Part shown: piece by piece, positions 231 to 55,434 of the stretch
Numbering within the stretch: the first letter of the stretch is position 1
How the letters are laid out: every line of letters starts with the position of its first letter
Origin: Anaeramoeba flamelloides
Lineage: Eukaryota; Metamonada; Anaeramoebidae
Direction of reading: 5' to 3'
NCBI GenBank assembly: GCA_027625915.1
Contig: JANTQA010000030.1
Location: 930,001-994,000 of the forward strand
DNA: 64,000 bases
Notes under the pieces: generated by a model
What the model was told of the DNA's origin: nothing
Seen by the model: only the letters and a program-made list of their open reading frames with translations
Databases searched by the model: none
Translations under genes and position numbers: made by a program

Positions 231-3200
231 CCTCTTAAAAGAGTAATTCTGCAAGGATAGATAACTTTTAATAATAAAAAAATTGATAGAACTTCAATAC
301 TATAAATAATAATAATAAATTATATATATATATATTTAATAAAGGTTAATGATATATTTTGTTTTCAAAAAATTTGATTTATTTATTTCTTGATTTAATA
401 AAGAAGTGTATTCATAATGAAAAAAAAAAAACCAATTAAAAAGATCATACCTATAATATCCACGATCAACATAATCCCCTAGAAATAGATAGTTAGTATA
501 TGGAACTTCCCCACCAAGATTAAAAATCTCCATAACATCATAGAATTGACTATAATTTTTGAAAAAATATGAATTATAAATGTAAAAAAATAATTTAAAA
601 AAATGTGGTTACTTTAATTAGTTGAATTATATTATTTTTTTGGTTTCTTTAAAACATATCATTTTAAAAAAATAAAATAAATTGAATTATTTTGAAAATA
701 TCTGAAAAATAATATATGGTGAAAATTCTATTGAAATTATCATTTTATATTAAAATATCAAAATATTCTGTAATATCATGTTTTTATTATTTTTCCATTC
801 ACTTTTTTAGAGTTTCTTTTTTGTTTTCTCATAAAAAAAAATAATTTCTTTTTTTTTTCGTTTTTTTTTTTTTTCGTTTTTTTTTTTTTTCGATAATTTA
901 ATAGTAGAGAAGAAGAAAAATAATGAACATTTTGGTTCTGATTTGGCGAGTAAAATATTAAAGAAGAGAAATTGCGGTGGTGATAGTTTATTAACTTTTT
1001 CTTACATACAATTCCCTTGTACTGGTATTAACCTCTGATGAGTACGGTAAAAATATCTTTTACTTGGATCAGTTCATGTCATATAAAGTATTTCCAAAAA
1101 AATTCAGTCATTTTTTTTTACATTAGATAATATTCTCTTTGTGAGTGGTTCGATTCATTAATTTTGTAATAGAAAATTTAAGTTAAATATTAATACTGGT
1201 TGAATCAGTAACTATGAGATTTATTTCAAAGTATATTTATCAAAATATTTCCAAAAAATTGAAAAAAAAAATCGCACTTTTTTTGAAGAAAAAGAGTAAA
1301 GATAAAATTCAATAAAAAATTAATAACTATGATAAGGGATTCAAACTGTTTTTTAAACAATAAAATTCAGCTATATTTTTTTCATTCTATTGATAATTTT
1401 GTGAAGATTAACTCTCTTTGGAAAACAATTTTTATGATCAAAAAGAATGAAAAAAATAGCAATTTTCACCAGTAAAAAATATCATATAAAATTGAGATTA
1501 GAAAATTTGATATCTTTTATTAAAAAAATGTAATACTAACAAACAAATAAATTTATTATTATATAAAACCCATTCCAAAAATTTGGTCACATACTAAACA
1601 GTTGAAAGAATAACAATACCACACTTTACATTCAATTTGGGAATAATTTTGATTTTAAAAACTATTTTTTTCATTTTTTGTCTTTTCTGTTTTGTTTTTC
1701 GTTTCCTTTTTTCTAGTTGCATAATTTGTTTCGTTAGATCTGGGAATTTTTTTTTTCAATGGTTGATAGAAGGTTAGTGTTGAGTTTGTTAAATTGAAAA
1801 ATCACATACAATTATTTGTTGGTATCTTAGCATTTGATCGATCAACAATTGTTGGTGAAATTTCAACAAATTTATCAATACAATTTTTTAGGAGCTCAAG
1901 ACAAAATAAAGCCTATCAGCAAATTCATTAAACCAGAAAATTTCAGGTCTCTCATAACAATTATTTTAAACACCTTTATTATTTTTTTCCACTCTTCATT
2001 CTTTTGTTTTTATCATTTGTTCCCCAATTCTTCATTTTTTATTCTTTCTTTTCTTTTTTTTAGAAAACCAAATTAAGATTCAAATACTTCTGATGACTGT
2101 ATCTATTTAGATAGTCTTTGAATTAGAAGTCTCAAATTTAGTCACTTCAGAATTCTCTCTTTAACAGATTAGATGAAGTTCCATCTAACCCTTAACAATA
2201 AATCAATACAATTTTTTGTTCCGCTCGTTTCATCATTTTGGACACACAAATTTTTATTTTTTCGTTTTATATTTTTTTTTTTTATTTGAATAAAAATGAT
2301 TACTTATAAAAACATGAATACTGGGTATATAAATGCGATTTAATACCATGTTTGAAAAAATATAATAAATTGTGGATTTTTTTTTTGCCTATTTTTGATT
2401 TTGGTTGTGTCCAAATTTTTGGAATGAGGTTTATATTAACAAATATTTTGATCATTAAATTTTTGTTTGTTTTTTTCAAAAGTTAAAATTTTGATTTTAA
2501 TAATTGATAAATTCTTTAATCTTCAAAATAAGAAAAAAAGTCAATGTTTTTTTATTCAATGATTCATTTTTAAACTTTTTTTTATTCTTTTTGTTCAATA
2601 TTTGTTAAAAAAATATATATATATGTAATGAAAGGGAAATGTAGTGAAAGGGTTGAATTTTAAATTTAATTTTTTTTCAATATCGTTTTTTTCCAAGATC
2701 CAAGACTTTTATCTATCCACTTAAATCAGATCTTCTTAATCTTTCCAAAAAAAAAAAAAATGTCATTAATTTCCTTTTTAACATTAAATCAGTATTTTTG
2801 GTTAAAGAATGTTTATTTTATCAAGTATGAAAAAGGGATATTTTGCCTCAGATAAAACTCTTGTTGGAAAATTAATTTATTTAAAAATAGTTTTAGTTTA
2901 AAATAATTTCAAACTTTATCATTTTGAATGCAACTTTGAAGAACTAATTTAGAATAATGAAAACACCTAAGTGTGGTTGAATTGTTTTGTGGGGAATAAA
3001 AACCAAAAAGTTATCAAAATTTGAGATTCAGGTTTCTGTGATTTCTGTGATTTCTGTGATTTCTGTGATTTCTGTGATTTCTGCTATTTGTTTTTTCAAA
3101 ATAAATGAAAATATTCTGTTTTCTTTTGAAACTTTTTGAATAAAGATCTTCAAAGATCTTTGCTTTTTTTGTTTTAAAGTTTGGCTTGATATGGTAAATT

Positions 3201-4265
3201 AAGTAGTTAAAAGAAAAGCAAAAAATATTTTTTTTTCTTTTGACTTTTTCAAAAAAATTTTGAGAGACAAAGTTTCGTGGATCTTAATTTCTTGTTTGAA
3301 ATAGAGTATTTCGGATTCAAGTTAATTTATGAAGGGGCTTTGTTGGGTTTTCTCTGAAAGCCGAATTAAAATTTCTAAGACAAATACCTTTGATTTTTTA
3401 ACAAGAAAGAGTCTTGAAATTGGTTATCCGGTTTTATTTTGAAGAGTAAGTACAATTTTATTGATCATTTTGATCTCTTATCTTTAGGGTTAAATTGGTG
3501 CATTTCTAAAGGTAAGGATTGTTGAAGAATTGAAAAAAGGCAAGGTAAATGAAAAATTTATCCCATTTTACTTTCAATTACTAATTAAAAACACGAGATC
3601 CCAGGTTCTTTGGCAATTTGGTTCGAACAAAAGAAGTGAAAAAACCTGTAATTCTAACAAATTTTGAATGAAAAATCAAATCAAAATCTTCGATCTGTAA
3701 TTATCAAACTAAAAATCAGATTTTGGTTAAAAATTGTTTTTTTTTCTTTCTTAAAAGGAAAAGAGAGAAATGGCTACCCAAATTTGTGTCTTAATTTATT
3801 TGAAAAAATTGTTTTTTCTTTATTTATTTTTTTTGTTATTTTTGGATTATGAATAAAACAAATTTGTAAGGTTTTGTTTGTATATTTTTTTTCAGCTTCA
3901 AATTTTGTCTTTTTGAAATAACAATAAACAACAAGAAATTGAAAAAGAATAAATTAAAGACTTGCTAATTTTTGATTGTATGAAATAACAAAAGTGTCAA
4001 ATAATGGTGTGTTTATAGCCAGATCGTTTCAAAATAAAAAGGAATTGGTAAAGAACAATAATTATAAAAAAAAAAAAAAAAAAAATTTTTTATCATCTTA
4101 CCCATGAACATCACCAACAACAGTTACTGGGGTATTAATTCTTGCAACATTTGGCTCATCAATTAAAATTTCTTTTACTTTTATACACACTTGCGAAAAT
4201 TCGTTTTCTGTAAGTAGTTTTGGAGGTGAAGAACAAAGGTTTTTTAATGCTTTTTTTAAATTCAT
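231..4265 (-). CDS. PP2A-like Ser/Thr phosphatase catalytic subunit, 5' part (runs off left edge)
   Basis: Metal-dependent Ser/Thr protein phosphatase of the PPP family, PP2A/PP4/PP6 branch. Three exons were joined by eye: 4265-4102, 549-451 and 299-231. Exon 1 ends in VTVVGDVHG before a GTAAG donor. Exon 2 continues QFYDVMEIF and carries GDYVDRGYY, which with GDVHG forms the metal-binding core. Exon 3 gives [10 protein letters not shown], the start of the GNHE motif, and ends at a GTAAGTT donor. All joins keep frame (phase 2 each) and rebuild the family without a gap. The next exon (NHE onward) is not visible in bases 1-226 and probably lies beyond the edge. The start chosen is the ATG at 4265; another ATG at 4304 is in frame. 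Intron 1 is about 3,550 bp and contains a LINE tail and one copy of a segmental duplication, whereas intron 2 is 151 bp. The exact paralogue (PP2A, PP4 or PP6) is unresolved. Confidence 0.9.
849..892. repeat. T-tract repeat with CG spacers
   Basis: Three runs of 10-16 T separated by single CG dinucleotides, inside intron 1 of the phosphatase gene. Simple low-complexity DNA with no other content seen. Confidence 0.7.
2070..2215 (+). mobile_element. LINE 3'-tail fragment, copy 1 (5'-truncated)
   Basis: A ~130-bp sequence with the landmarks TTTGAATTAGAAGTC, TTAGTCACTTC, AATTCTCTCTTTAACAG and a terminal TTAACAATAAA. The same order occurs at 51.48 kb (+) and, inverted, at 22.46 and 55.44 kb. At 22.46 kb it forms the end of a LINE with reverse transcriptase, so I read this copy as a 5'-truncated LINE insertion in phosphatase intron 1. 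An upstream open stretch at 1834-1960 may belong to the same insertion, but it shows no recognisable domain. Confidence 0.55.
2760..2855 (+). other. Conserved 31-codon ORF in duplication copy 1
   Basis: A 31-codon ORF beginning [13 protein letters not shown]. The same ORF at 30381-30476 differs by one amino acid (G versus V near the C-terminus). It coincides with the best-conserved block of the duplication. Whether it is translated is unknown; the block could equally be conserved or young for non-coding reasons. Confidence 0.2.
3030..3085 (+). repeat. 10-bp tandem repeat (TTTCTGTGAT)n
   Basis: About five and a half head-to-tail units of TTTCTGTGAT. The duplicate copy near 30655 has only about one and a half units, so the array expanded after the two copies separated. 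Confidence 0.9.
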
Positions 4266-7599: not shown

Positions 7600-7930
7600 T
7601 CTAAGAGTATAGTAGAGTATTGTGAAGTGTCTAGGTTTTCTTTTAATTTAAGAATTAAAAAGAATATAAATAAGGTTTTCTGACTTTTTCTGTTTTATTT
7701 GAATAATTTATTGATTTTACAAATAAAAACGAAAATTAAGAAAACCTAATTGTATTTTTACAGAATACATGAAAATTTATTAAAATCAACAATTTTAGTC
7801 AATTCTTTTAAATTCTGCAAAAAGTTTTACAATAGTGTATGCATTTTTTTAATTTAAGAACCAAACCGAAAATAACATAAATTTTCTTTTTATTTCTTAT
7901 ATTAAAAAAAAACTAATAACACTTACAACT
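7600..7930. repeat. Decayed hairpin array
   Basis: Diverged version of the hairpin modules found at 21.2 kb: the words GTGAAGTGTCTAGGTTTTC and ACAAATAAAAACGAAAATT, and inverted pairs around AATTTAAGAA. Arms are recognisable but mismatched, suggesting an older copy. No coding content. Confidence 0.5.
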
Positions 7931-18319: not shown

Positions 18320-21300
18320 ATGGAAAAAAAGCCACCAAAAATTCCAAAACCATTAACTGGGTATTTAGTTAAGCAAGGTGGTAGTCACAAATCTTGGAAA
18401 CGAAGATTTTTTGTATTATCCGATCTTGAGGTTTATTATTACAAAAAGGAGACACAAAAAGATAAAGAAAGTGATCCACTTGGTGTAATTTCACTGTTTG
18501 GTTCTCGTGTTTCTGAAATTACGCGTCGTCAAATTAAAAAAGACAATGCGTTCAGCATTTTCCATCCAATCTCACGTGATTATTTTTGCGTTTGTAAAAA
18601 TGAAGGAGAAAGAAACAAATGGCTAGATTCCTTAAACAAAACAATCAAATATAGCGATGTTTGTTGTCCTATTTTTATTTTCCTCTTTACTTTTCTTTTT
18701 TTGCGACGATTTATTTTTCCTTTTTGTTGCTTTTAGTTTTTCTTTGCTTGTTGAGGGGTTTCGAATTCGAAAAAAAAAAAAAAAAAACAAACAAACAAAC
18801 AAACAAACAACTTAAAACGGATACACTACCAAACCTAAGAAAGTTTTTTGAGTTGAGAACTAAATTCATTTGAAATCCTTTTTTTTTTTTAATTGCAAAT
18901 ACTGCGGTATGTGATTTAAACTTACATTACACAAATATTTTTCATCTTTTTCAAAAACAAATTTCCCTAATTCAAATTCTATCGACAAGACCAATAAGGA
19001 AGCTTCGTTCAATCCATAAAAATACTGTTTCTAATTGATTTTGTAAAGATCTTTGGGTTTTCTTACATTCATAATTAGTAAAGTATTTGGGAATTGAAAT
19101 AAAAATTTACACTTATTAAGGACTAAGTTTTTCGGTGAAAACAGGTGAAATAATGTATAAAATCACCCTTGAAAGAGTTATGTTATTCAAGTAATATTTG
19201 TCCAAGGAGAATTTCTTTAAGAAAAAATGTGAAATTTTCACAATTTCAACAATTTTCACAATTTTTAACCTTGTTAGATCATGCTAAATTTTGATTTTAA
19301 TATTTTAGAATTTCCATTTCAACTTTCGGAACTCACACTATTTTCTTTGGGTTGGTCTATATATTTTTTACAACTACTTTCCTAAGTTTGAAATGTTCTC
19401 AAAGTTGAAACGTCCTTAAAAGTCTCCAAAAGCCATTTTTTGCAATTATTTTTTTTGTTATTTTACAATTTCTTTTAGCATTGTGAAAAAAATTTGGGTC
19501 ATTAAAAAAAATTGGGTCAGTCAAAAATTTGTTTTCGTTTTTTAAATAGTAAATATTAGCAAAATGATTTTTGATCAAAGTAAAATTTTATGAACAAATT
19601 TTACATTTAATAAAAACCAAAGTCACTATCAATAATAATTTTCAAAGGTAAAATTAAATTGTTGCATTTTAACCTTTTGGAATTACTGTGGAACTCTAAA
19701 ATACTAAAATTTATTTTTAATTGTAAACTTTACTAAAAATGTTAATTTTTTTTTATTAGATTACATTCCAAGTTCAAGTTAATCATTGTTTGGGAAGACC
19801 AAAAATTAATAACCATTTTAAATTAAGGTTTGTCTATGGGGATTTAAAGAATTTAAATGGTTTCTGAAATCTTGGTATTTCGGTATTTTGAAGTTTTGAT
19901 TGTAAACATTAGTGGAAAACAACCTCTTTCGAAAAACAGCTTTTTTGGAAGAATTTATAATTCAATTTGGTTTAAAAGGATATTTAAGATTAACCGTGAT
20001 AAATTTGCGTTCATTAACAATGATAAATATTTTATTGAATTAATAGATTTTAATATTTCCTATTAAATAGTTCTCTTATTTTTAGTAAAGTTTACAATTA
20101 AAAATAAATTTTTGTTTTTTTGGAGTTACAAAGTAATTCCAAAAGGTTAAAATGCAACAATTTAATTTTACCTTTGAAAATTATTATTGATAGTGACTTT
20201 GGTTTTTATTAAATGTAAAATTTGTTCATAAAATTTTACTTTGATCAAAAATCATTTTGCTAATATTTACTATTTAAAAAACGAAAACAAATTTTTGAAT
20301 GACCCAATTTTTTTTAATGATCCAAATTTTTTTCACAATGTTTACAATGAAAAGGAAAGAAAAAAAGTCTTCCGTGAAATGGTAAAAATCACAAAAATAG
20401 TTTTTTTTTTTTTGTCCAATTTCTTCCGTGTGAAATTTTTTTGTGAGAAGTGAAAGTGAAATAACACAATTACTCAACCCCCCTTAAGGGTGGGAAAGTA
20501 GTCCTTAATTTGAAAATAGTTGCAATAAGAAAACTTTTATGAACATACTTTGAAATATAATTAATTCTTTGTTTGTTTGTCTTTTTTCCCCTTTTCTTTC
20601 AGATTATAATTTTTAAAGTTATGTATTAATAGGCTATTTTTGATGTTTGCTAATAAAAATTGAAAAGTAAAAATATTTGATCGAAACAAAAAATAAAAAA
20701 ATTTCAAATTTCTTCTTATTTAGCTTTATACCCACAAAATTTATATCCAAAAATTCAAACACAAAAAATTTGCAAGCAACAAAAGTATTTGTGATTGGCT
20801 AATTTTTTTAAAACAAGTTATTTGGTGATCCTTTTGTGTGTATTTAAAAACCCCTTTGTAATTATCCCAATAATTATCCCAATCAACATTTTTTACAAGT
20901 TGTTATTTGAAGAAGGAATTCTGCCTAAAAAGTGGAATCGAATTACTTGCTTTGAACAACCATTTTTCTATCAAAATAAAACAATTTTAGAAATTTGCGT
21001 TTTCCAATATTGTTATTTATCCCAAAACACAAATCACAAGAAAAAAAAAAAGACAAAGTATAAGACTAATTGATTAAAACTTTTCTAATTTTGTTTTTTT
21101 AATCTGATCCCGTTATTTACATTGGTTTTTGTTTTAAAAAATTGCCATTTTTTTTTTTTTTTAATTTTATTCTCATTATTGAAGAGAGGTGATTCAACAA
21201 AATTACCTTCTGTTTGCCTTTAGGTTTTTTTTAATTTGAGAAATAAAACGAAAATTTATTTAATTTTCGGTTTATTTCTCAAATTAAAAAAAAACCTAGG

Positions 21301-24300
21301 CACTCTCCGTTGGATTTTTCAGAATTTAAAAGAATAGAGTAAAATCTTTGATTTTTCTCCATCCCTTTGAATTCTGGAAAACCTATACACTCTCCGTTAG
21401 ATTTTCTTGAGTTTTTTTTTTTTTTTTATTTGTGAAGTGTTCTAGGTTTTTTTGAGGTTTTCTATTTTATTTTGAAGTGTTCTAGGTTTTTTTTTACTTT
21501 AGAAATAAACCGAAAATTTATTAAAATTTTCGGTTTATTTCTAAAGTAAAAAAAACCTAACGAAAATCTATTGATTTTCTAAATAAATAGAAAACTCAAA
21601 AAAACCTAACGAAAATAAATAGATTTTACAAATAAAACAGAAAACCTCAAAAAAACCTAGGCACTCGACGAAAACCACTTTAGGTTTTTATTAATTCCAG
21701 AATTCAAGAGTATAGAGAAAAATAAAAGATTTGATTCCATTATTTTTAAATTCTATAAAACCTTTCGGAAAATATCCTCAATTACAAATAAGTATTGAGA
21801 TTTTCTTGAGATTTTCTGTTTTATTTGTAAAGTGTTCTAGGTTTTTTTTTACTTTAGAAATAAACCGAAAAAAAAAAAAAATTTCTTTTATTTCAAAAAG
21901 TAAAAAAAAAACAGCTGTTAGCTTTTCCAGAATTTGACAGAATTGGGCAAAATCTTGGATTTTTCTCTATTCTTTTGAATCCTGGAAAACCTAGGCACTT
22001 TCGGTTGGGTTTTCCAGAATTTAAAAAAATAGAGTAAAATATTAGATTTTGCTCCATTCCTTTGAATCATGGAAAACATATGCACTTCCCGTTAGCTTTT
22101 CTTGAGTTTTCTTTTTTATTTGTAAAATAAATAGATTTTACAAATAAAACATAAAACTCCAAGAAAACCGTCGTTAGATTTTTTTTAATTTCTGAAATAA
22201 AAGGAAATTTATTTAATTTTCTTTATATTTCTGAAATTAAAAAAAACCTAGGCACTCTATGGTACTCTATGGCACTCTATGGCACTCTGTAGCACTTGAC
22301 TAATTTCTAATTTTTTTTCGGATTTTTTATCTTAGTTACAATGTTGACAAAATTATAATTCATAGAATAGCTTTTCTTTAAAAAACGAAAAGAAAAAAAA
22401 ATTATTTTTGAATAAAAATAAAAAAAAAAAGAGAAATAAAAGAAATAAAAGGGAGTTAGGCTTTATTGTTAAGAGTTAAGTGCTAAAGAGCTCTTAATCT
22501 GTCAAAGAGAGAGTTTTGAAGTGACTAAATGTGTGACTCCTAATTCAAAGAGTGGTCAAAAGAAACTTTTAATTACATTCATTAGAAATATTTTAAACTC
22601 AATTTAGTTTTCTGTAAAAGAAAGAGAAAAAAAAGAAGAAAAAAAAAAGAATAAAAAATGAAGAGTGGAAAAAAAAATCAAGATATAAAAACTAGTAGTG
22701 GTATTGAGAGGATATATGTTTCTGGTGAGTTGAATGACTTGCTATTTAGACTTTTATTTTAATTCATTAATTCCTAGAGAGTGCTGGGTCATATTAGTCA
22801 GAAAATATTCTATTGTGATGTTGTATATTTTTTTTGTATTCATTTTTCTGAACAACTCATCAATATCCTCTCTGGCAATGATGCTAAATTCAAAATCTTT
22901 GACTTTTTTGAGCTCATTTTTCTTGTATTTTCTGGTTTTTTTCATATTTTTCGCATTTCCATATGAAGTGGTCTACATCATCAACTTTTTTTTTTGCAGT
23001 AGGGGAATATTTTGTTTTTTATTCCCGGTTCTCACCACTCATGCGTATCTACATAAGCCATTTGAGAAAGATTTGAGCTTAAGCAGAGTTTTTGATAATT
23101 TCCAGTTCAAATATGATTGTTTTATTGCGAAGTTTTCTGGAAATTGAGCAATTTTGAGGTCTTTTTTTTCAATTTCCAGTTTTCTTAACCTACTGATGAA
23201 TCGGCTTTTTCTTGTGTAGTCTTTACGTGGACTTCGTGGAGTTTTTTTCCTTTTCAAAATGCAAAAGAGTAAAAAAATAATTAATAAAAAAAAGTAAAAA
23301 CTACATTGAAAAGTTGTTATTTTTGCACCCCGGTTTTTTTTAATGGGCTGTGGTTATTTTCTTTTAGGACGAAAATTTCTTGATCCCCACCATAATTTAA
23401 TTTTAATAAAGAAGTTTAAATATTTGACCAACTATAAATCAAATGAAATATATTATCATATTTTCACCTTTAAATTCTGTTTTGTAAATAAGAATTGGCA
23501 CATTTCTATTTATTTTGCATATTCCGTTAATATATAAATTAATCCAATAATTCAAATAATTTATTGTTTTTATTTCATAATTAAAAATTTCTAATCCATA
23601 TGTCAATTGGTTTAATATAAAAGATTTAAATAATCTAATTTTTAAACTATTGTTCAGAGAATTGTTATTGAATAATTGTTTACATTTTGTTATAAGTTTC
23701 TTTATATTTTTTTAAATTCTAAACTATATGTGAAATTTTATCTAAATAAATACCCAAATATTTATTTTTTTAAAATCTTTTGATACAAATGTTTTATCTT
23801 TATTGGGGTTTCAATCCAAATTGTATAATAATTCCATATATAGAATTTAATTTTCCATTGATTTAATTGGATTTTTATTGCCTTTAATAATTAAGATTAA
23901 ATCATCTGCAAACATTTGACAATGGTTTGTTAATGGTATAACTTTTTAGTAAAAGAAAATGTGAAATAAGAGCAAATAAAATAGGAGATAATGGGTCTCC
24001 TTGGAATACACCAAGTTCTTTACCTTGATAATATCTTAATAAAACAATTTTAATAATTTTATTTAAAATGAATTTTTTTATTGCTTTACTAATTATTTTA
24101 AAATTAATCGAATCAAAATATTTTGCTATATCAATCATTATAATATATGTTTTATCATTTTCCCTTTCATTATTGGATTTTATCATATAATAATTATCTA
24201 AGAAATTTAATACTGCTATGCGAGTATCATATTTTTTTCTAAAACCAAATTGAAATTTATGAATAAATCCCCTAAAAGATTCAATTAGTTTATATAACAT

Positions 24301-27300
24301 TTTTAGAAATGATCTTTGTAAACTTTGGTTAATGGAAATTGGCCTATAGTTTAAAGCTACCCCTTCGTTTAATTTTTTATGAATAAATAAAATTGCACTA
24401 TTTTTAATGTATTCAATGTTATTCTTATTGGGGTTAATCAATCAATTATTAAATATTTTCTGAATGGTAATAAGATATTTTTTATAATTTTTATTTTCAA
24501 TTGGGTTTAAATCGAGTGAAATTTCATCATTACTCATATATTTTAAATTTTCAATTTTTTGAAATCTTTTACACGATTTATTTTTTAAATTTTTAATAGT
24601 GTTTTTAATGTTTTCAATTCTAAAAAATATATCAATTTTAAACTCTTTGAATTTTTTTATAAAATCTACAATATTTTTACTTGATTTAATAGATTTTTTT
24701 TTATTCATATAACTAAAATATTCATCAATCATATTTTTCTTACTTAAAATCATTTTCATTCTTTTTAGGCCTTATTAAATTATTTTTTTTAAAAAATTTT
24801 TGTTTTTAGTAAATCCTAAGTTCATTTCATCAATGAATTTATCCTAAGCTTCAAAAAAGTAATTATTTAAGAACAAATTTCAAATTAAATTAATAATTTT
24901 TTTCTTTGAAATAAATATTTTCATTGTTCTTTTTTTTTTTTTTTTTTTTGAAAATGAGATTACATAAAAAATTTTACACAACCATACAAATTATCATAAT
25001 TCATAATTTTTACATCAACTTTTTTCTTTATTTATTGTTAATAGTCGATAAGGGCAAGGGACATTATGTATGAAGGTTATTTAACAAAACAAGTAGAATT
25101 TTTTTCGTAAGATAAATAATTTTTTCAACTAAATCTTTGAACCAATTATATTTTATATTATTATAAATTATTATCATTAGGGATCGAAAGTCAAAAATTG
25201 GAAAAAAAGATATTTTCTCTTAAAGGATAATTGTTTATTTTATTACATTTCTAAAGAAGTAAGTTTTTTTTTTCTTTTTCATTATTTCTTTTTTGAATAA
25301 AATAACATAATTTTGAGATATTTTATTAAATCTTTTTTAAAAAAATTATAGATTTAAATTTATTATTTTCAACTTTCACAATATTTCCCTAAACTAAATA
25401 AAAAAAAGAAAGAAAAATAGTCTCTTTACAATCTTTTATTTTTCCCTCTTAGTCCTTTCTTTTTTAAAAAAAAAAAAAAAAACACTTCAAAATACATTTT
25501 TTAATTAAATTCACAATTACAATCTTGGAAAGAATATAAAATCAAAAATATGGTTTAATAGATTAATAAAAAAAATATATAAATTCAAAAAAAAATTAAA
25601 AAGTTTATTTCTCTCTTATTTAAAACAATTAATAAAATTTAACCAACGAAAAAATCATAAAATCAATTGGAATTCAAAAGATTTAAATGAAGTCAAAAAA
25701 AGGAAAGTTATCAATACATATAATGAATTATTGATTTCTAATTGTTAGAAAGTCTATAAATATTTTACAATAATAAAAAATCAAAAATCTTCATTGCAAC
25801 TCAAAGATATTTAAGTTATCCATAAAATTTAACCATATTAAAATTTAGAACATTTGCTAATTGCTTAGGTTTATTATTATGTAATAAATAAAAATTCGAA
25901 TAAAATATGTCCTTTATGTTTAAAAATATGGATGGGAAGAAATAATAGAAAATATTGATCATTTTTTAGAGATGGGTATTTCCTTCCTAATGGAAAGGAT
26001 AGATCAATATTTCACAATAAATTAAAATAAATAAATCCCAATGAACTAATTTTAAACCAGGGTAGTTTAAAATTACTTTCGTTAATCAATAATTTTAAAA
26101 TCTATGATTTTTGATTTTAATGCCATTATAGGGAATTTAAGTATCAGGGAAACTAGAGGGCAATTTACACTTCTTCACTAATAAAAAATAAAAATAAAAA
26201 AATATAGATTTTGTTCACAATTCAAATTCTTACAAAAAAATATTTTTAAAGGTTCTGAAACGATAACCAAACTATGAACAAATATAAATAGTATTAAAAA
26301 AACTTTTCTCATAATCAACACTCCACTTTGTCTTTAATCATTTATTTGTTCTTTTCTAAATTAAAACTATTTTTCATTTTCAGGTTTCTGTGATTTTTTT
26401 AGTAATGTTTACAATTAAAAATCGGTTTTGAACTTTTTTACCTATTTCAGTTTTTTTCTAAAAAAGTTCTTAAAAAATTTATTTAATTTTCTTATTACCC
26501 AAAAACTAATCATGTTTCAAAATAGTTTCTAATTTAAACACTATTTCCGGATCTCAACATTTAATTCCATAAAACTATTTTTCAAAAATGTTGACTCGCT
26601 TTATAATGTTAATGGAAATGGTTTTGGAGGGTTTTATTCTTTATTCTCCTCAAAATAAAATTTTCAAATTTTAAATCAAAATACATTTTTTCTAATTTAG
26701 TCAATTTTTGGTTTTACTTTCGCCAAATGTTCTTTCTTTTCAATTACCTTTTTCTTTTTTATGATCTTTAAGTTTTTTTTGTTTTTCTTCTATTTCTTCG
26801 TATTTTTCTTTTCATTTTTCAAAATTTTGTTTTGCTTTTTTTTTTGTTACTTTTTTTTTTTACAAAAGATCAAGTTGAAAAAAAAAAACAAGCTCTTAGA
26901 AAATACCAATAAAGGTTAAGAAAATTGAGACTGTGTAATTTCTTTTAAAAAGAATTTAATTATTATCAATAAATCTTCTTGTCAATCTTTTTTCGGTTAA
27001 AAGTTAATTAATAAAAAATCCATAAATGCTCATTTCAAAAATTGTGATTAACTTTTTTTTTGTTTTTGTTGTTATTTTTTAATTTTTAAAATATCAGGAT
27101 TTTGTCTTATTTTTAATGACTTAAAAAGGAAATATTGATAAGATTTATTCTTTAATTATTCTTGAATACTAAAGAATATATTTTTATTTTTCAAAATATT
27201 CCTTCTGGTGAGTCCACAACACTAGTATGAAATAATAAAATTGAAAATTCCAAGTTAGACAAAACTATTGCTTTAATTATCATTTCAACCTTGATAATCG

Positions 27301-29426
27301 AGTTTATTCACAATATAATCAACATTTCAGCTCTTAAAAGTCTTGAGGATGTTGTATTTATTGTTGTTTGTCGTACCACATTTTTAAAAAGTCTCAAGTC
27401 GAGAAAAAAGGTATTTTTCGGGTAAAAATTTTTAAATGGATGTGACAATGAATTTTTGTTAAAGTCAACTTTAGGATATTTTTTTTGAAAAGATAATGAC
27501 TAATAGTTTTGAAAACAGTCTACTCATCTAAAAAAACACAAATAAGAAAAAAATAACTGATGAAAAATATACCGTGTCAGTAAAGTACCGTCAAGTGCGT
27601 AGAGTGCCTAGGTTTTCCAGTATTCAAACAAATTGAGTAAAATCATATAGATTTTTACTCTATTCTTTTGAATTCTGGAAAAGCTAACGGCGGTTTTTTT
27701 TTACTTTTTGAAATAAACAGAAAATTTTTTAAAAATTTTCCGTTTATTTCTTTTGAAATCTGAAAAACGTAAAGAAAGTATCCTAGGTTTTTTTTACTTT
27801 TTTGAATAAACCGAAAATTTATTAAAATTTGCTGTTTATTACAAAAATTAAAAAAAACCTAACGGAAAAATCAAAAAAAATTTTTTTTTCAATTTTAAAG
27901 AACAAATAATTTTTTAATAGTCAAACTAATTGGTTCCCTCTTTGAAAAATATTCATCATATCTAAAATACTCTCAAAGTATATGATTATAACCACTTATC
28001 TAGAAGCAAAAATTTTTTTCTAATTTTTTACTATTAAATTTCAAAAAAATCTTAATAGAACCTGTAAAATTGGATTTTTCGACTTCAATTGTAAAATATC
28101 TATAAAAATCATTTTTTGATCAAAAGATCTCTTATTAACCAATAATATTTATTATAATTGAAATTAACAAAATGTTAAAAATTAGCAAATGTTTAATTTT
28201 TTTTTGAAAATTTTTTTTCATGATTGTGAAGTGTAAACATACGTCTCTATTTATGAAATATAGTTTATAAAAAAAAAAAAATAAGAATAATTTCATTTCA
28301 ATTCTATTGCAATTTGTAATTCTATTGAATCCATTTCACCTTAAAATCAAAATTTTAAAATTGAAAATAGATTTTTTTAATTCTAATTATTCTTTTTTTT
28401 TTTTTTTTTATGGTGAAATTTAATTCTTTTTAATCAAACACTTGTTTTTCAAAATTGTCGAATACCCTTTTGTTTTACTCTAAATTATATTAAACAAGTT
28501 TATCAAATATTCTTTAATAAAATTAACAACATAATAAGGGATTAACAAAACCGTTAAATAATATTAGTTTGCTAAACGTTAATGTATTTGATGCAGATAA
28601 GATCACTGGGCTTGAACATAGTATTTCAGTTTCCCATCCACTACGAAGAACATTTCTTCTACGTGCAGAGAGTTCCTCCAAACAACAAGAATGGCTGGAG
28701 CAAATCAGGAAGGCAAGAGTATGTTTTAATCATAAGCTAGTTGGAATGAATAAAATAAAAAGTTCACAACTTGATTTTTTATCATTCTTTGCTGATCAAA
28801 ACAGAAAAAAACAAATTTTGCAATGTGTTAAAAAATGGATTCAAGAAAGGCCATTATTTTTATTAGATTTTGAAGATTTTTGTGAATTTTTAAATGATCT
28901 TGATAAGGAAAAAAAAATGAAAGAAAACAAAAAAATGAAATCAAGAGATTATTTGAAACAAATCTTTAATCAATTTGATCTTGGGAGTTTTGGAACAATA
29001 GATTTCCGCCTCTTACTAACAGGGATTATTCTAATTTCGGATTATAATGGTAAAAAAAAGCTAAATTTAATTTTTCAAATATTTGATCATGATTCAGATG
29101 CTATTTGTTCTTTTCAGCAAATTCTTTCAATGTTCACAATGTTTAGCCATTTGCTAATCGATAAAAACAAAACCGAAGTAATGGCTTTCGACACTCAACT
29201 CCAATGCCAAAAGAAGAAGAAAAAATTACCTTATAAAATCGACATTCGAGATAAAATTAGATTACTCTCAGAAGATAACACTTATGAATTATTTAGACAG
29301 GCTAAAAAAGAATTAAATATCAAATCATCAATTTCTCAAGAGAAATTTGTTCAATTAATCTCCCATTTCCATTACGGCATTTCCTCAAGATTAGAGATAC
29401 TCCCATATTTATCACCTTTTAAATAA
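18320..29426 (+). CDS. Tandem PH-domain / EF-hand protein (four exons, TE-inflated introns)
   Basis: A predicted 450-residue adaptor or signalling protein. Exons: 18320-18658, 25045-25092, 25181-25258 and 28539-29426, all joined in phase 0. PH domain 1 (about residues 12-108) has GYLVKQGGSHKSWKRRFFVL and ends with the helix NKWLDSL. PH domain 2 is split over three exons: EGYLTKQ in exon 2, KNWKKRYFLLKDNCLFYY in exon 3, KPLNNISLLN through QQEWLEQIRKA in exon 4 (to about residue 215). An EF-hand pair follows: the loop at 302-313 (DLGSFGTIDF) is degenerate, and the loop at 338-349 (DHDSDAICSF) keeps D at 1, 3 and 5 but lacks Gly6 and Glu12. PH domains usually bind phosphoinositides, so membrane recruitment is likely; Ca2+ binding is doubtful. 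Intron 1 (6,386 bp) and intron 3 (3,280 bp) are packed with repeats; intron 2 is 88 bp. The exon 1 donor (GTTTGT) is the weakest call. Confidence 0.85.
18778..18811 (+). repeat. (AAAC)n microsatellite
   Basis: An A-run followed by six AAAC units shortly after exon 1 of the PH/EF-hand gene. Confidence 0.9.
19126..20508. mobile_element. TTAA-ended element with long inverted arms, in PH/EF-hand intron 1
   Basis: Ends are TTAAGGACTA and TAGTCCTTAA, giving a ~1.38-kb unit. Inside, 19478-19760 and 20067-20345 are inverted copies of about 280 bp with very few differences (shared words include AAGGTTAAAATGCAACAATT and AAATGATTTTTGATCAAAGT). They enclose a ~305-bp centre with a 69-codon ORF at 19857-20066 starting at TTG, of no known domain. 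The near-identity of the arms suggests a recent origin or conversion between arms. Transposase not seen. Confidence 0.7.
20795..21064 (+). other. Possible reverse-transcriptase-like fragment
   Basis: An open stretch containing KLLFEEGILPKKWNR, which resembles the segment preceding the first RT block in LINE polymerases. What follows does not continue the RT fold, so this is at best an isolated remnant in PH/EF-hand intron 1. A chance resemblance is quite possible. Confidence 0.15.
21170..21221 (-). repeat. Poly(A)-tailed retroelement end (SINE-like), inverted
   Basis: Read on the minus strand, AGGTAATTTTGTTGAATCAC, CTCT and CAATAA then an A-rich tail. The same 3' end appears at 41845-41926 with a 25-nt A tail and, diverged, at 45970-46025 and 26140-26190. 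This fits a short retroposon 3' terminus; the body could not be delimited. Confidence 0.45.
21222..22310. repeat. Modular hairpin array HA1
   Basis: About 1.1 kb built of alternating palindromes. Type A, best at 21484-21558, has arms ACTTTAGAAATAAACCGAAA and the inverse, extended to about 36 bp per arm and bounded by AGGTTTTTT and AAAAAACCT. Type B uses AAATAAAACAGAAAACTC and its inverse. Type C uses TTCCAGAATTTAAAAGAATA and its inverse around a TTTGATTTT centre. Modules are separated by the words CCTAGGCACTCTCCG and CCTAACG. It lies in intron 1 of the PH/EF-hand gene, directly beyond the 3' tail of a LINE. No coding capacity. The same modules recur at 7.6, 27.6, 44.1, 45.7 and 54.9 kb. Confidence 0.85.
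22250..22305. repeat. ~11-bp tandem repeat (GGCACTCTAT)n
   Basis: Four imperfect head-to-tail copies of GGCACTCTAT at the edge of hairpin array HA1. They expand the GCACTCT word that otherwise separates single hairpin modules. Confidence 0.85.
22440..24780 (-). mobile_element. Degenerate LINE (reverse transcriptase, C-terminal zinc finger, 3' tail)
   Basis: Non-LTR retrotransposon on the minus strand in intron 1 of the PH/EF-hand gene. From 24759 down, a Lys/Asn-rich region precedes the RT at about 24440-23880, with NYRPISINQ, FQFGFRKKYDT, IDIAKYFDSI, GVFQGDPLSPILF and the catalytic FADDLIL. A thumb-like region follows at about 23800-23560. The C-terminal part at about 23260-22750 includes DDVDHFIWKCEKYEKNQ, the zinc-finger signature common at LINE C-termini. 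The 3' tail (22455-22620) matches the dispersed tails at 2.1, 51.5 and 55.4 kb. The frame is broken by at least two stops or frameshifts (for instance before FADD), so it is inactive. No endonuclease domain was seen upstream, so it is probably 5'-truncated. Clade not determined. Confidence 0.85.
25540..26030 (+). mobile_element. LINE C-terminal remnant
   Basis: One frame reads FNRLIKKIYKFKKKLKSLFL, then after several stops NKICPLCLKIWMGRNN, resembling the Cys-rich C-terminus of the LINE family above. It lies in intron 3 of the PH/EF-hand gene and is heavily decayed. A SINE-like tail (GGGCAATTTACACTTC then CTAATAAAAAATAAAAA) follows at about 26150-26200. Confidence 0.5.
27595..27870. repeat. 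Modular hairpin array HA2
   Basis: Type C module (TTCCAGTATTCAAACAAATT with its partner ending GAATTCTGGAAAAGC) followed by two type A modules (AAATAAACAGAAAATTTT and AATAAACCGAAAATTT, each with inverse). The boundary words GTAGAGTGCCTAGG and AACCTAACGG match HA1. Lies in intron 3 of the PH/EF-hand gene. Confidence 0.8.
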
Positions 29427-43369: not shown

Positions 43370-44104
43370 AATAATTTCTTATTTTTTTATTTTTTTTTTT
43401 CAAAATTTCTTAAACTGGCTCATTTAAAGTATCTGAGTTTACAAGCTGAGTTTAATTTGAATTTTGTTAGAAATTTTTTTTTTGAAAGAACACCAATTAA
43501 TTAAGTACCAATTTTCTGGTAACATCTGAAAAAAAATTATTTTTTTCAGTAGAGAGAGTAGAAGTTTTAGTCAAAATATAATTTACTAATGTTTACTGTT
43601 AAAAAAAAAAAAAATTTTTTTTTTTTCAAAAAAAAAATATTCTTAAAATTGAGTTTAAACTTATGAAAGATCCTACTAAAAATATTTAAAAACACATTTT
43701 AATTTTCATTTTTGATGGGATCCTTAATTTCTATATTTATTGGCCAATATATCAAAAAAAATATCCCAATTAAATTTTTTTGAAAGTAAAAATTAAAAAT
43801 GGGCAATATATCCTTAAATAAAGGTTCTAGAGAGCTATGAACATCAAAAATGAAATCTCCAAATAAAAATGAAATTATTTATGTGAAAAAAATTTTCAGA
43901 TCCTTGATTTTCAATTCCGACTAGTGGATTACTTTTCCTCAAATCTGTAATTTTGATGTACTAAATTTCGATTTTTTTTTTGTCTTGTAAAAAGTCCAAA
44001 ATTTTTCCTTATAAAAGTGATACTGGTTGTATTATGAAATTTTTTGTGATTTACCATAAATTGATTGATAAATGTTGAAGAATGTTGTTAAGTACTGATC
44101 TTTT

Positions 44105-44270
44105 TTATGATTTTCTGTTTTGTTCTGTAAAATCTAGCAATTTTCCTAATAACAAGAAAACTCAAGAAAACCCAAAAGCACTTTATTTTTTTTTTTTGAA
44201 GAATTCAAAGGAATCGAGAAAAATATTTTATTTTATTCAATTTATTTAAAGTCTGGAAAATCTCTCGGTG
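44105..44270. repeat. Decayed hairpin array HA6
   Basis: Type B and C words in the usual order (TTTTCTGTTTTGTTCTGTAA, GAAAACTCAAGAAAACCC, GAATTCAAAGGAATCGAG, GTCTGGAAAATC) with many substitutions. Confidence 0.5.
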
Positions 44271-44689
44271 TTTTTTTTTAAATTCTTGTTTGGAAAATAT
44301 ATTGTTTTTTTTAAACAAAACAAAAAGATAAATTTCACAAAACTTAACAATATTCCCAATGATAAAAATTCAATATTTGCTTTTATTTGTAATTATTATT
44401 ATTTTTTTTTTTTGGTTAATTTAAATCGTTTGTGTTACAGTTTATTTTATTATTATTATTTTGACTTTTATTTTTTATTTTGTCAAATTATAGGAGAATT
44501 AGATTTTAATTTTTTTATATTTATATTTTGATTTTTATTATTATTTATTGATTTAAAGTTATTTTTAATTTTAAATTTTATTTTTGAAATCAGAATTGAT
44601 GTCTTTATGTTTATTTTAAATATTTTACCAATGCATGAATTATTCCAAAAATTTCAATTATTTCAAATTTTTATTTTTTTTTGAAATTT

Positions 44690-45689: not shown

Positions 45690-45965
45690 AAGTGTCTTAT
45701 TGTACCTATATTTTCCAAAATTTAAAGAATGGGGGGGGGGGGGGGGGGGGGGGGTTTTACTCAATCCTTTTACATTCTAGAAAGGATACCGGTGTTTTTC
45801 TTGAGTTTTTCGGATTTATTCTGTAAATATATTATTTTTCTAAATAAATAGAAAACTCAAGAAAAGTTACAATGAAGTCTCTAAGTTTTTTTTTTTTTAA
45901 TTTAAGAAATTAACTAAAAATTAAATATATTTTCTTTTTATTTCAGAAATTAAAAAAAAAAAAAA
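45690..45965. repeat. Hairpin array HA4 with embedded poly(G)
   Basis: Module order as in HA1: GTAAAGTGTC, then a type C arm (TTTTCCAAAATTTAAAGAAT) that is interrupted by 24 G and resumes TTTTACTCAATCC; then type B (GAGTTTTTCGG..AAATAAATAGAAAACTC) and type A (AATTTAAGAAATTAAC and partner). Followed by a SINE-like tail at about 45970-46025. Confidence 0.7.
45731..45754 (+). repeat. Poly(G) tract, 24 nt
   Basis: Twenty-four consecutive G inside a type C hairpin arm. Other copies of that module have AGAGTAAAATC-type sequence at this place. Confidence 0.95.
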
Positions 45966-46199
45966 TAATGGTAAAGAGGATGTAACTTTGTTAAATCGTC
46001 ATTCTTTACTAATAATAAAAATAAAATCATTTTTTGTAAGGTATTTTTAGTATAATTATTCCAAAAAATGTGATATTCCTTTCCAATTGGCCAAAAATAA
46101 TTCGAAATGTTAGAATCTAAAATTTTACTGGTTTTTCCTTTTTTTTTTCCTCTAGTTATTCACCAAGTATTTTTTTTTACTATTTGATTTTTAATTATC

Positions 46200-51500: not shown

Positions 51501-54203
51501 TTCACTCTTTGTATTCGAAGTTACGAATTAAGTTACTTCAAAATTCTCTCTTTACTAGTAAAGTGTTTTTTTTTTTTTTTTTATACAAAATACTTAACAA
51601 TAAATCTAAAACCACAAAATTGTGATATTTTTTTCTGAATTATCTTTAAATTTTCTCAAATAATCATTATACCCCGAATCAAAAAATAATTTTAAAACAA
51701 TCAGATAAAATCTTTCTAACAAAAATCTTTTTTATATTGTGATTTTTTAATTAAAAAAATTATAATAGCATTTTTAAAACATTTTATAATTTTTATTATT
51801 TTAAAGTATTTCAAATTTTAAATCAATTATTTATTTATTTGTATAAAATCTTTAAAAAAAATAAAAAATTGAAAATATTTAATTACAATTCGTTTAAAAA
51901 ATTTTTTAATGATAATTTTACAATTTCAAACAGTTTTCTATCATGATTTTTAACAGTGAAACAATTTTAACATGGTATATTATTATTATTATTATTATTA
52001 TTTTAATTGTTTTTCAATATCCTTAATTTATAACACATTATATAACATTTTTTATCTTATATAACACCAATATAACATTCTACAAAATTTGATCACGCCT
52101 TTTATAACAATAAAAATTGTTAATTTTTTTATGGCATGTTATAGGTGTTATTATTAATATTTTAATAAGTTTCTTTCAAATTTTATAACACTTTCAACAT
52201 TTATAACACGTCTAATATCACACGAATAACATGTTATATAATTTTTTTTTTTTTTTTATTAGGGTATAAACCTCAACGAAAAGAAAAGCTTAATCATAAA
52301 TTCTCAGTAGAATAATATAAAAAAAAAAACCTTCTATTTATTCAAACAAACAACTTTTCAAAAACAAATATTTTATTTGAATTTTTCCAACACTTTCAAA
52401 TATCAAATAAAAAAATTTTTTTTTATTTTTATTTTTATTGATCAATACTTTATTTAATCATATCATTCAATAACAATAGATTGCTCTACTCCTTATACAA
52501 TTTATACTGAATGCTCTCTTGATACGGAAGGCTGTGAATTTATCTGGCCAAGGTACGCCACCGTTCCAATCTGCTCTATCAAGAATTCTGATGGTGTATA
52601 TGACAAGATTGAAGAATCTGTGGGAAGCCAAGAATGCTCAAAAAGAAATGACTGCGATGAATGCCTGGAAGCTGGCTGTCATTGGTGTTATTCGGAGATT
52701 TTGAAGAGCGGGCAATGTATCTGGGCAAATGAAACAGGCAATCAATGTCCATATGAAGTCAGAGATACATGCCCACATTTATGCGAGTCTAAGCCGAACT
52801 GTGGTGCTTGCCTGGGCGAAGTAAATTGCACCTGGTGCGATTTAAGTGGTAATAATGAAGATTTTAAATGTTTTTCTACAGAATCAAATGAATGCAGCAA
52901 TCAGGATGGTATTGTAATTGATTCATGCGCAGCTGATGAATGCGATCAGGAATCTTGTTATCCGTGCAAGAACCATGGCTGCTCGTGGTGCCAAATCGGG
53001 GAAAACGCTATTTGCACGAAAAATGATTCAGATTGTATTGACAACAGTGGAGGTGAAATTGTAGAAACATGCGAATCCACTTGCCAATCTTACGATAACT
53101 GTGATGAATGCACCCCCGAGAATGGCTGTCAGTATTGTTACGCGCAGGGGGATTATAGATGCATCGATATTGGCAGCCAGTGTGATGAATATGGAATCGA
53201 GAACTGTACCGACACAAGGATTTGTGAAGGCAGGAATTGTTATGATTGTATTAGATTTGAGCAGTGCACGTGGTGTGAGCATGCAAACGAAACAACCGCT
53301 TGCACGTTTAATCAGATGGAATGCACAGACGCCGGTGGCAAGGCGTATGATGAGTGCCCACCAAGGAATTGTTCCGATCATACAGATTGCGAGGAATGTA
53401 ATAGCAATTCTTGTGTTTGGTGTGTCGATGATAGCGATTCGGTTTGTAAAGATTATTCTCACCAATGCGAAGAACCCTATACGATCATTTCTGATTGTGA
53501 GCAAGAAAAATGCCCAATTTACGGATGTAATAAATGTAATGAAAATGAATGCTTTTTTTGTAAACTGTCAAATGGCGAAGAAAAATGTATTTCATCAAGT
53601 GAAGACTGTGAAGGGGAAATTGTAACCGAGTGTGAAAATATACCTTGTAATGACGTCACCGATTGTGATGCTTGCTTGGACCAGGATTGCACATGGTGCC
53701 ACAATCTTAATGACACATTCTCTTGTTCGGAGGAAAGCATTTGTACCAAAGACAATGGGTATCCCGAAGAGTTTTGTATAGAATGTAATTTCTTTACTTG
53801 CGACACATGCCAAGAAAATAGCTGTACTTATTGCCAATTTGACGATCTCGATGAAATGTGTACGACCACTGACGAGGCGTGTATAGACAGGGGTGGTACG
53901 GTGCCAGACACTTGTTCAGATTCTAGGAATTGCTATTCCAAAGGTACTTGTAATGATTGTGTAGAACAAGATTGTATATGGTGTGATCTTGAAGAGACTG
54001 AAAATAAATGGGCTTGTACGTTTTTACCTGGTGAATGCATAGACCAAGGTGGTAATAATAGAACTTCGTGTGCTACTCCCACTCCTTCAACAACACCCAC
54101 TCCAACGACAACTCCTACTACAGTAATATCAACAGCCGATTTAACTTCTAAATTTTCATTAATATTCTTATTATTACTTATTTTTATCAATTATTTATTT
54201 TAA
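48595..54203 (+). CDS. Secreted PSI-repeat, Cys-rich protein with probable GPI anchor
   Basis: Predicted 700 residues from exons 48595-48768, 48877-49081 and 52480-54203. Introns are 108 bp and 3,398 bp. Residues 1-18 form a signal peptide (MKNLIIFFLFLSSISSN). The rest is a chain of about ten clear Cys-rich units of the pattern C-x2-C-x4-8-C-x-W-C (for example DCDECLEAGCHWCY, NCYDCIRFEQCTWCE, DCDACLDQDCTWCH) plus two or three irregular ones near the start. These match the PSI (plexin-semaphorin-integrin) fold. Possible N-glycosylation sites (NCTWC, NDSD, NETT) are frequent. The C-terminus has a Thr/Pro linker (TPTPSTTPTPTTTPTT), then a small-residue stretch and a final hydrophobic segment FSLIFLLLLIFINYLF, typical of a GPI signal, though a membrane anchor without cytosolic tail is also possible. 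Role unknown; adhesion or surface coat is inference. Exon 3 is markedly less AT-rich than its surroundings. Confidence 0.88.
49133..49617. mobile_element. Foldback/MITE family 2, copy 2 (in PSI-gene intron 2)
   Basis: Inverted arms at about 49133-49193 (AAATACCTGAAATGAAAAAA, GATTTTTAATTGTGAATATT) and 49553-49617 (AATATTCACAATTAAAAATC, CATGTCCGGTATTTTTTTC), ending ACTG. It starts about 50 bp after the exon 2 donor. Opposite orientation to the 46.2-kb copy. Confidence 0.7.
50170..51210. repeat. Alternating inverted repeat family 3, cluster in PSI-gene intron 2
   Basis: The motif AGCTAAATGAAAATTTTGTT or its inverse recurs at about 50180-50220 (inverse), 50400-50440 (inverse), 50565-50600, 50725-50765, 50995-51035 (inverse) and 51165-51205. 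Pairs face each other around AATTCTAAAAAGG-AAATTAATAATTTA centres. This makes a cluster of overlapping hairpin-capable units of ~210-350 bp. Confidence 0.65.
51478..51610 (+). mobile_element. LINE 3'-tail fragment, copy 3
   Basis: AAGTTTAAAATGATTCGAAT, CACTCTTTGTATTCGAAGTT, TTACTTCAAAATTCTCTC then TTAACAATAAA. Orthodox order for the LINE tail; lies in PSI-gene intron 2. Closest to the 55.44-kb copy. Confidence 0.6.
52015..52245. repeat. Cluster of TATAACA motifs
   Basis: About a dozen TATAACAC/ATAACATT-type words within 230 bp, some in inverse orientation (GTGTTATA), about 240 bp upstream of PSI-gene exon 3. Looks like a decayed tandem or palindromic repeat. An (ATT)n tract precedes it at 51975-52000. 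Confidence 0.6.
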
Positions 54204-54589
54204 AACTTCTTTTTGAAATTTTAATTATTGTTTTTTTTTTTTGTTTTTTGTTTCTATTAAATTCTTTTGTTGGATCTATTCTTCTCAAAAATAATAAATA
54301 TATATATATATATTCTAATATTAATTTTTTAAACTTTCCCCAATTTTTAAATATAGAATTTTAGGAAATGTGTGAAATTTTTTGATTTTCAAATACTTTT
54401 TTAAAATAAATTTTTGTCTTGAATTTTTTAAAGTCATTACATGATTTTAAAGAATAACATTTTATAAAATGGAAGGATTCTATTTTCATATTTCAAACTA
54501 AGAAATTTCTCAAATTACCAAAAGGGATATTCTCATATTAATGATAAGTGTAAAATAAAAACAAAATCTTGCAATATATTTAAAAAAAT

Positions 54590-54760
54590 ATTTCAATCTA
54601 GAAATTAGATAAAGATATCAATCATTTTTTATGGGACTGTCCATTTTTACAAGAAAAAAATCAAATAATTTGGATTTGGATATTACTTCAAATTAATAAT
54701 GATAATACATGAATAGCATCCTTGGTATTATTCAAAATAAAGTATCATTAATTATTTTGT
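54590..54760 (+). mobile_element. LINE zinc-finger C-terminal remnant
   Basis: One frame reads DKDINHFLWDCPFLQEKNQI, the His-Cys signature of LINE C-termini, just downstream of the PSI-repeat gene. Surrounding sequence is decayed. Confidence 0.6.
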
Positions 54761-54844
54761 CATTGTTAAATGATAAATACAATTATGATTGGTTATAAAA
54801 ATTTTGAAACAAAAATTTAGAAATTAAGGGGGTGACATCAACAC

Positions 54845-55375
54845 CTACAAATGTTGTAGAGCGTTGTAAAGTGTCTAGCTTTTCCAAAAATTAAAAGAAT
54901 TGGGTAAAATCAAAGCTTTTTATTCAATTTTTTAAAATCCCAGAAAGTTTACGGGTGGTTTTTTTTTTGATTTTTCTATTTATTTGTGAAGTGTTCTAGG
55001 TTTTGTTGAGGTTTTCTATTTTATTTGGAAAATTTATTGATTTTCATTAAGTTTTTATTTACTTTTTGAAATCAACCGAAATTTTATTAAAATTTTCTGT
55101 TTATTTCAAAAAGTAAAAAAAACCTAGAAAACTTCACAAATAAATAGAAAACTCAAAAAAACCTAACAAAAATCTATTGATTTTCTAAATAAACAGAAAT
55201 CAATAAAAAAAAAATGTAGGTTTTTTAAATTCTGAAATAAAAAGAAAATTTTTGAAATTTTCAGTTTATTTCTAAAATTAAAAAAAACCTAACGGCGGTT
55301 TTCCAGAATTCAAAAGAATAGATAAAAATCTTTGATTTTACTTAATTCATAAAAATTCAAAAAAAACTTAAACAC
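54845..55375. repeat. Modular hairpin array HA3
   Basis: GTAGAGCGTTGTAAAGTGTC, type C, B and A modules: at 55050-55125 arms ACTTTTTGAAATCAACCGAA and inverse; at 55140-55200 type B; at 55215-55295 AATTCTGAAATAAAAAGAAA and inverse; then type C again. Borders AACCTAG and AACCTAACGG as in HA1. It ends about 65 bp from a LINE 3' tail. Confidence 0.8.
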
Positions 55376-55434
55376 TGGTAGAGGAAATTAATATCCTCCC
55401 TTCAAAATAAAAAAATTTATTTATCTTTTTGTTA

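Follow-up and report, generated by a model that had tools for sequence, protein, structure and literature searches.

How do the same few palindromes come to be strung together, in changing number and order, at several places of one nuclear genome? The question is raised by positions 21222-22310 of a 64-kb stretch of Anaeramoeba flamelloides DNA (930001-994000 of contig 30, in an assembly of 254 Mb and 76 contigs). We call this stretch the window. The array found there consists of hairpin-forming modules that recur elsewhere in the window and in the genome. We consider it likely that such arrays travel as passenger cargo in at least two high-copy element families, a long interspersed nuclear element (LINE) and a short element named X, and that the modules are shared and reshuffled between them.

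Direct and inverted repeat searches resolve the array into a string of three palindromes, A (about 76 bp), B (about 78 bp) and C (about 71 bp). Hidden Markov models (HMMs) of the modules give 11 hits here, in the order A, C, A (between the halves of B), C, A, C, C, B and A. The first A occupies 21223-21295 and is followed by C at 21316-21383 and by a nested hairpin, B(B2(A)), at 21399-21660. Its inner A lies at 21485-21557, and the right halves of B2 and B lie at 21562-21608 and 21612-21658. Further along are found C (21695-21759), a degraded A (21840-21908), two C modules (21924-21991 and 22010-22077), an un-nested B (22092-22169) and a last A (22178-22248). The coding-side end of the array is made of 10-bp repeats, (GGCACTCTAT)n, at 22247-22300. 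The best arm pair, 21488-21519 with 21524-21555, is 32 bp long and 100% complementary around a 4-base loop. Five of the six strongest palindromes of the window are array hairpins, the sixth being an (AT)n run, and palindromes of that strength are found neither in 30 first-order Markov resamplings of the array nor in one of the window. An earlier note on this DNA had described three palindromic module types joined by fixed spacer words and had seen them at five further places. The palindromes are present where it put them, and both blastn and the module HMMs recover them at all five places (7.6, 27.6, 44.1, 45.8 and 54.9 kb), with 27 module hits at six array loci in the window. Of the two spacer words, CCTAGGCACTC is present three times in the array. 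The other, CCTAACGG, does not hold for it: the array reads CCTAACGA instead (21556 and 21605), and exact copies of CCTAACGG sit outside, at 27858 and 55288.

The modules are abundant beyond the window. The 20-mer CCTAGGCACTCTACGGCACT, which runs from a module end into a decamer spacer, has 274 + 258 = 532 sites genome-wide, and its reversed control has 0 + 0. For an estimate of density, seven large contigs were sampled at round positions, in 20 stretches of 10 kb (0.08% of the genome). Blastn matches are found in 10 of the 20 and cover 3,740 of 200,000 bases (1.9%), and the HMMs place 43 modules in 14 array loci. Scaled to 254 Mb from this small fraction, the rough figures are about 18,000 arrays and 55,000 modules. 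Inside the array at 21222-22310 tandem periods of 49, 87 and 10 bp are observed, as a satellite-like tandem expansion without link to mobile elements would leave. We regard such an origin as very improbable. Those of the 532 sites that were listed are scattered over several contigs and both strands, and 15 of the 20 array loci lie within elements. Satellite DNA forms long tandem arrays at few loci, and the arrays here are dispersed and short (128-1,230 bp among 38 that were delimited). Horizontal sharing was also considered: the 20-mer has no site in viral_contigs, and a 16-mer occurs once in each of three bacterial contigs, which we take as chance.

The surroundings of the array at 21222-22310 identify it as part of a retrotransposon, here named LINE Y. 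A minus-strand, 5'-truncated copy spans 21147-22400 (5' limit approximate) and carries, in its own reading direction, the last codons (about 22400-22315), the array, a 3' stem-loop at 21186-21210 (GAGGTGATTCAACAAAATTACCTTC on the plus strand; compare L003, L036, L038 and window 55381-55398) and a poly-A tail at 21148-21162, which is poly-T on the plus strand. Other arrays likewise have a stem-loop and poly-A on one side and DNA encoding the end of a LINE protein on the other (antisense in L003 and L010). There, a 380-bp block beside the array encodes the antisense LINE C-terminus, with HHFLW in L003 and CNLC in L010. Poly-A tails and frequent 5' truncation, both usual for LINEs, are found in L003, L010, L036, L038 and the window (21148-21162 and 55381-55415), and when four copies were translated upstream, only the region after the reverse transcriptase (RT) domain was visible. 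LINE Y is like the 3' ends of other LINEs, or retrotransposons without long terminal repeats, in its C-terminus, 3' stem-loop and poly-A tail. It differs in the variable hairpin array upstream of the stem-loop and in a second array within the coding region.

These two positions were followed through the recognised copies. Site 1, between the coding end and the 3' stem-loop, is filled in nine of ten copies (L003, L005, L006, L017, two in L038, L040 and two in the window). It is precisely empty in L010, the only empty LINE site, by comparison with which the filled copies read GG...GG. Site 2, inside the C-terminal coding region, is filled in L003, L010, L021 and L038. Matches to the regular expressions for these sites are mostly chance in AT-rich DNA, and those continuing as LINE sequence were retained by eye; a second scan, allowing substitutions only, agreed on the four site-2 copies and on the boundaries of X. 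Two more LINE arrays are found in the window. A plus-strand LINE Y fragment at 54465-55415 consists of a coding remnant (54465-54829), an array (54868-55365), the 3' stem-loop (55381-55398) and then an A-rich tail, its limits being approximate. The plus-strand array at 45753-46010 (half of C, B, A) goes over into a LINE-type stem-loop at 45975-46007 and an A-rich tail. Its LINE label, like those of L026a and L038a, was given by eye from these two features, with the site-1 word in addition for L038a.

The second host was recognised from array flanks that match one another. They define element X, a putative non-autonomous cut-and-paste DNA transposon of about 1 kb. The window copy lies on the plus strand at 27220-28228, with CACTAG...TTGTG ends, an internal array at 27598-27869 and AA as its target duplication (27218-27219 and 28229-28230). 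When the 27.2-28.3-kb region is used as query against the genome, eight other copies are matched full-length in one piece, starting at query positions 26-31 and ending at 1026-1046. Seventeen copies were aligned (14 fetched copies, the window copy, L034 and L021). They have sharp ends of the form CACTAG...CGTG, namely CACTAGTATGAAAAAAT...TTTTTTCATGATCGTG (the right end is also written CATGATCGTG), and a 2-bp target duplication: 10 copies have it exactly, in six it deviates by one base and in one by two. The array is located between two arms of about 360 bp, which diverge by 3-24% from copy to copy. At least a partial array occupies this same place in all 17 aligned copies, and the differences between copies are of whole modules: several contain C-A-A, some C-A, L053 only the last A, and L054 and L021 C with half an A. 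All 17 copies with an intact left boundary (L011, L015, L021, L034, L041-L052 and the window) have an array after it.

The ends of X resemble those of CACTA (EnSpm/CMC) non-autonomous elements. Like these, X starts with CACTAG and makes target duplications of 2 bp, within their range of 2-3 bp. Its terminal inverted repeats start with CAC(T), as a comparison of CACTAGTATGAAAAAAT with the reverse-complemented CACGATCATGAAAAAAT shows. The repeat is only partial, since the right end has CACG, and X differs from the group in reading CACGATC there rather than CACTA. The linker decamer CGGCACTCTA resembles the TNPA motif of En/Spm. Hairpin arrays of this kind are, to our knowledge, no CACTA feature. 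Two further insertions were observed close to X and its arrays. A second short CACTA-like element of 375 bp, with ends CACTAGAGTAAATATGAAATG and CACAAGTGTAAATATGAAATG, is inserted with a TT/TT target duplication at the edge of an array C module (L021, 5017-5391). In L044 the X copy beside about 1126-1201 (minus strand) sits, with a GT duplication, apparently at the boundary between the array and the right arm of another X; the word ACGGAAAATCAAAG adjoins its left end.

Taken over the 20 array loci, a host is recognised for 15. In the sample, X carries four of the 14 loci and LINE seven, and no host was recognised for three (11 of 14 in elements); in the window one of the six lies in X and three in LINE, with two lacking a recognised host (four of six in elements). 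The loci without a recognised host are L026b, which is probably a LINE tail, L028, L030 and two degenerate arrays of the window, at 7613-7928 (B, C, A) and 44101-44312 (B, C). The earlier note knew of no standard element class with such a layout. Its modular layout, spacers and hairpin folding are upheld; this part holds only by half, as the 15 loci are inside two ordinary mobile-element families with defined ends. Since most of the examined arrays are transposon cargo, its reading fails in the strongest form. Modules that are internal parts of one ordinary transposon, which the note had named as the finding that would overturn it, are nearly what we see; but two unrelated elements carry the modules, and the modules cross between them. 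A shared and nested module pool of this kind is unusual.

With two hosts in hand, it can be asked whether one of them came first. The array may have been born once, by local duplication in the LINE 3' untranslated region, and been captured by X, with only gene conversion between the numerous homologous arrays acting later. This alternative is possible, and we rate it at somewhat under even chances. The LINE 3' or C-terminal regions account for 10 of the 20 loci, and the near-constant occupation of site 1 also speaks for it. In addition, the LINE-type nested forms B(A) or B(B2(A)) are found in the X copies L034, L011, L015 and L018. It leaves unexplained the second array in the LINE coding region, as well as the units with the same ends inside hairpin loops.

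If the modules are instead shared and reshuffled cargo of both hosts, as we favour, host labels should be mixed in module trees. Modules without clear host (22 of 88 A and 16 of 62 C) were left out of the trees; the repeat trees leave out 26 A and 18 C, adding to the omissions L008, which has a flank-cluster label only, and one L044 module outside X. The C tree needs 15 changes between X and LINE labels, compared with a mean of 15.7 for shuffled labels, and 212 of 500 shuffles are as low. Without the doubtful locus the figures are 14 and 14.9, with 201 of 500 shuffles as low. Starred branches force two to five label changes in the four analyses. On these trees the C modules of X and LINE appear phylogenetically intermixed, and the A modules partly so. 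Because the labels are mixed, modules have probably been passed between the retrotransposon and the DNA transposon more than once. This passage between class I and class II elements probably took place by insertion, recombination or gene conversion.

The units themselves have a grammar. Read in one direction, they have the form AGTGYYCTAGG - hairpin - CCTAAC(G)G and are separated by GAAA-like linkers or 10-bp repeats. The B hairpins hold other hairpins in their loops. Each of the 19 loci L002-L020 has B(A) or B(B2(A)); these loci had been chosen for matching best an array that already holds the nesting. B nesting is also found in L034, L040 and the window. In L005, L018 and L019 the inner unit is reversed and stands at the mirrored place. 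Un-nested B hairpins were reported 14 times, the last being a hybrid, and their unoccupied loop reads ...TATTTG(G/T)AAAATC.... Where B loops are occupied, 24 of 28 left junctions have GA before AGTGTTCTAGG, and 28 of 30 right junctions have GA after CCTAAC. These junctions look like insertion with a 2-bp duplication, in copies that share ancestry.

Such junctions suggest a different explanation, in which the arrays go back to a nuclear hairpin parasite. Self-propagating units of the form AGTGYYCTAGG-hairpin-CCTAAC would insert with a short duplication into LINEs, into X and into their own loops, as a nuclear counterpart of the mitochondrial GC clusters, and both hosts would then spread the resulting fractal arrays. 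The GA junctions, the display of an unoccupied loop by un-nested B hairpins and the mirrored inner units all agree with it, as do the GG...GG of LINE site 1 against the empty L010 and the independence of the C tree from the host. We nevertheless consider it unlikely. The X junction fits poorly: GA begins the insert in six of 17 intact left boundaries, and the right junction is mostly CCTAACGGA. Two-base duplications are weak evidence in an AT-rich genome, the more so in copies that are not independent. Neither an enzyme nor a single-unit insertion in unique DNA, paired with an empty sister site, was found. Miniature inverted-repeat transposable elements (MITEs) and foldback elements have one pair of ends with duplications; what the units offer in comparison is recurrent ends, GA in the B loops and in part of the X left boundaries, and one possible empty site.

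Are the hairpins kept for their RNA? The earlier note had proposed that transcribed arrays, for instance in introns, would fold into strings of duplexes and could be a source of double-stranded or small RNA. The folding is borne out in silico. As RNA, the minus strand of 21218-21700 has a predicted energy of -179.4 kcal/mol, compared with -81.6 +/- 5.5 for 100 shuffles (z = -17.9). For the intron location, no exon pair was recognised around the array of the X copy at 27.2-28.2 kb, the only case inspected. Selection of the arrays as RNA structures, either as a source of double-stranded or small RNA or as a LINE 3' recognition signal, would agree with these very stable folds and with the changes seen on both arms of A. 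These changes occupy 69 cells against 31.6 in shuffles, in a covariation set that was picked by eye and has 58 of 88 A and 53 of 62 C modules. The excess is mostly confined to columns 12-18, which define subfamilies (ACTTTAG/CTAAAGT and AATTTGAG/CTCAAATT), and so points to few events. C, on the other hand, shows no excess (16 cells against 19.9). RNAalifold predicts no consensus pairs for A or C, although single copies fold well, and no Rfam family reaches the gathering score in the window. The sub-threshold Rfam matches are mostly microRNA precursors, as long hairpins give. Selection on the hairpin at the RNA level is thus not visibly present, and we think it quite improbable that it explains the arrays.

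We therefore return to arrays as shared cargo. Retrotransposition and transposition of the hosts would drive their copy number, and changes in module number and order would come from recombination or gene conversion among arrays, or from template switching at hairpins. With less certainty, the hairpin unit AGTGYYCTAGG...CCTAAC may itself insert, and may first have seeded both hosts and its own loops. Several observations weigh against this explanation. No array-free X was found among the 17 copies with intact left boundary, and no empty site 2 among the four LINE copies recognised, so the arrays may be ancestral in both hosts. The empty site 1 of L010 is explained equally well by a deletion at a 2-bp CC microhomology. 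For the most part, the nested copies of B(B2(A)) go back to one or a few events. The A modules show partial clustering by host: their tree needs 13 label changes compared with 21.8 in shuffles, none of 500 being as low, and 11 compared with 20.1 in the repeat tree; one group of 30 rows in the A tree has 24 rows from X. The module trees have 71-76 columns and few supported forks, and for some loci the host was assigned by eye. Finally, no transposase was linked to X; the CACTA transposase profile PF02992 gave no match, with its controls silent too.

Mobile or spreading hairpins are known from other systems. Allomyces mitochondrial DNA reportedly contains double-hairpin elements. In sponge mitochondria, repeated hairpin-forming elements are thought to spread (PMC2800124). 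Both kinds are mitochondrial, and the parts of the sources available to us do not mention a LINE or DNA-transposon host. The GC clusters of yeast mitochondria are palindromes with 2-3-bp flanking repeats that undergo merging and shuffling (PMC4478555). GC42 and its relatives are mitochondrial, 42 nt long and mostly intergenic, whereas the modules here are nuclear, about 70-80 bp long and AT-rich with GC-richer linkers, and they ride inside transposons. A more distant parallel is given by the bacterial repetitive extragenic palindromes and bacterial interspersed mosaic elements (REP/BIME), which are associated with REP-associated tyrosine transposases (RAYT). Here too palindromes are combined into mosaic arrays; they are 20-40 bp long, extragenic and bacterial. 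From the sequence of one genome, we file the arrays under none of GC clusters, sponge mitochondrial hairpins and REP/BIME. A narrow literature search, mostly without subscription papers, found no nuclear hairpin-module family common to LINEs and DNA transposons.

The neighbourhood of the array adds some observations. Another LINE lies on the minus strand at 22770-24441 (low end approximate), with an RT region at 24441-23905 (RVT_1, E 8e-16), a FADD motif at 23921-23880 and a C-terminal HFIWKC at 22985-22926. The truncated LINE Y copy at 21147-22400 sits in its 3' flank. A non-array repeat, part of the 3' flank of another LINE, is found beside several LINE Y insertions (window 22454-22615 and 55431-55532; L007, L013 and L017), as if it were a preferred landing place. 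In L038, three arrays are packed in 1.4 kb (2532-3969). One LINE copy accounts for two of them, at its sites 2 and 1, and the third lies at the 3' end of a different copy with the opposite orientation. At 45730-45755 of the window about 24 consecutive G, which may be natural or an artefact of assembly, lie within a C module in this genome of 23% GC. The window itself, also about 23% GC, has a eukaryotic gene set, including a ZGRF1-like helicase, PH domains and ALG10. To be noted is also a cysteine-rich open frame of 581 amino acids at 52458-54203, with repeated CxxC motifs, a hydrophobic C-terminus and no Pfam match, in a GC-richer stretch (36%).

If our sample is typical, the arrays make up about 2% of the 254-Mb genome and could affect its replication, its assembly and a possible load of double-stranded RNA. 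One pool of palindromes in both a LINE and a cut-and-paste element would, if true, be a rare bridge between transposon classes. The spread and shuffling of hairpins, known mainly from mitochondria and bacteria, would then become testable in the nucleus, and the shared, nested module pool of this genome merits genome-wide study.

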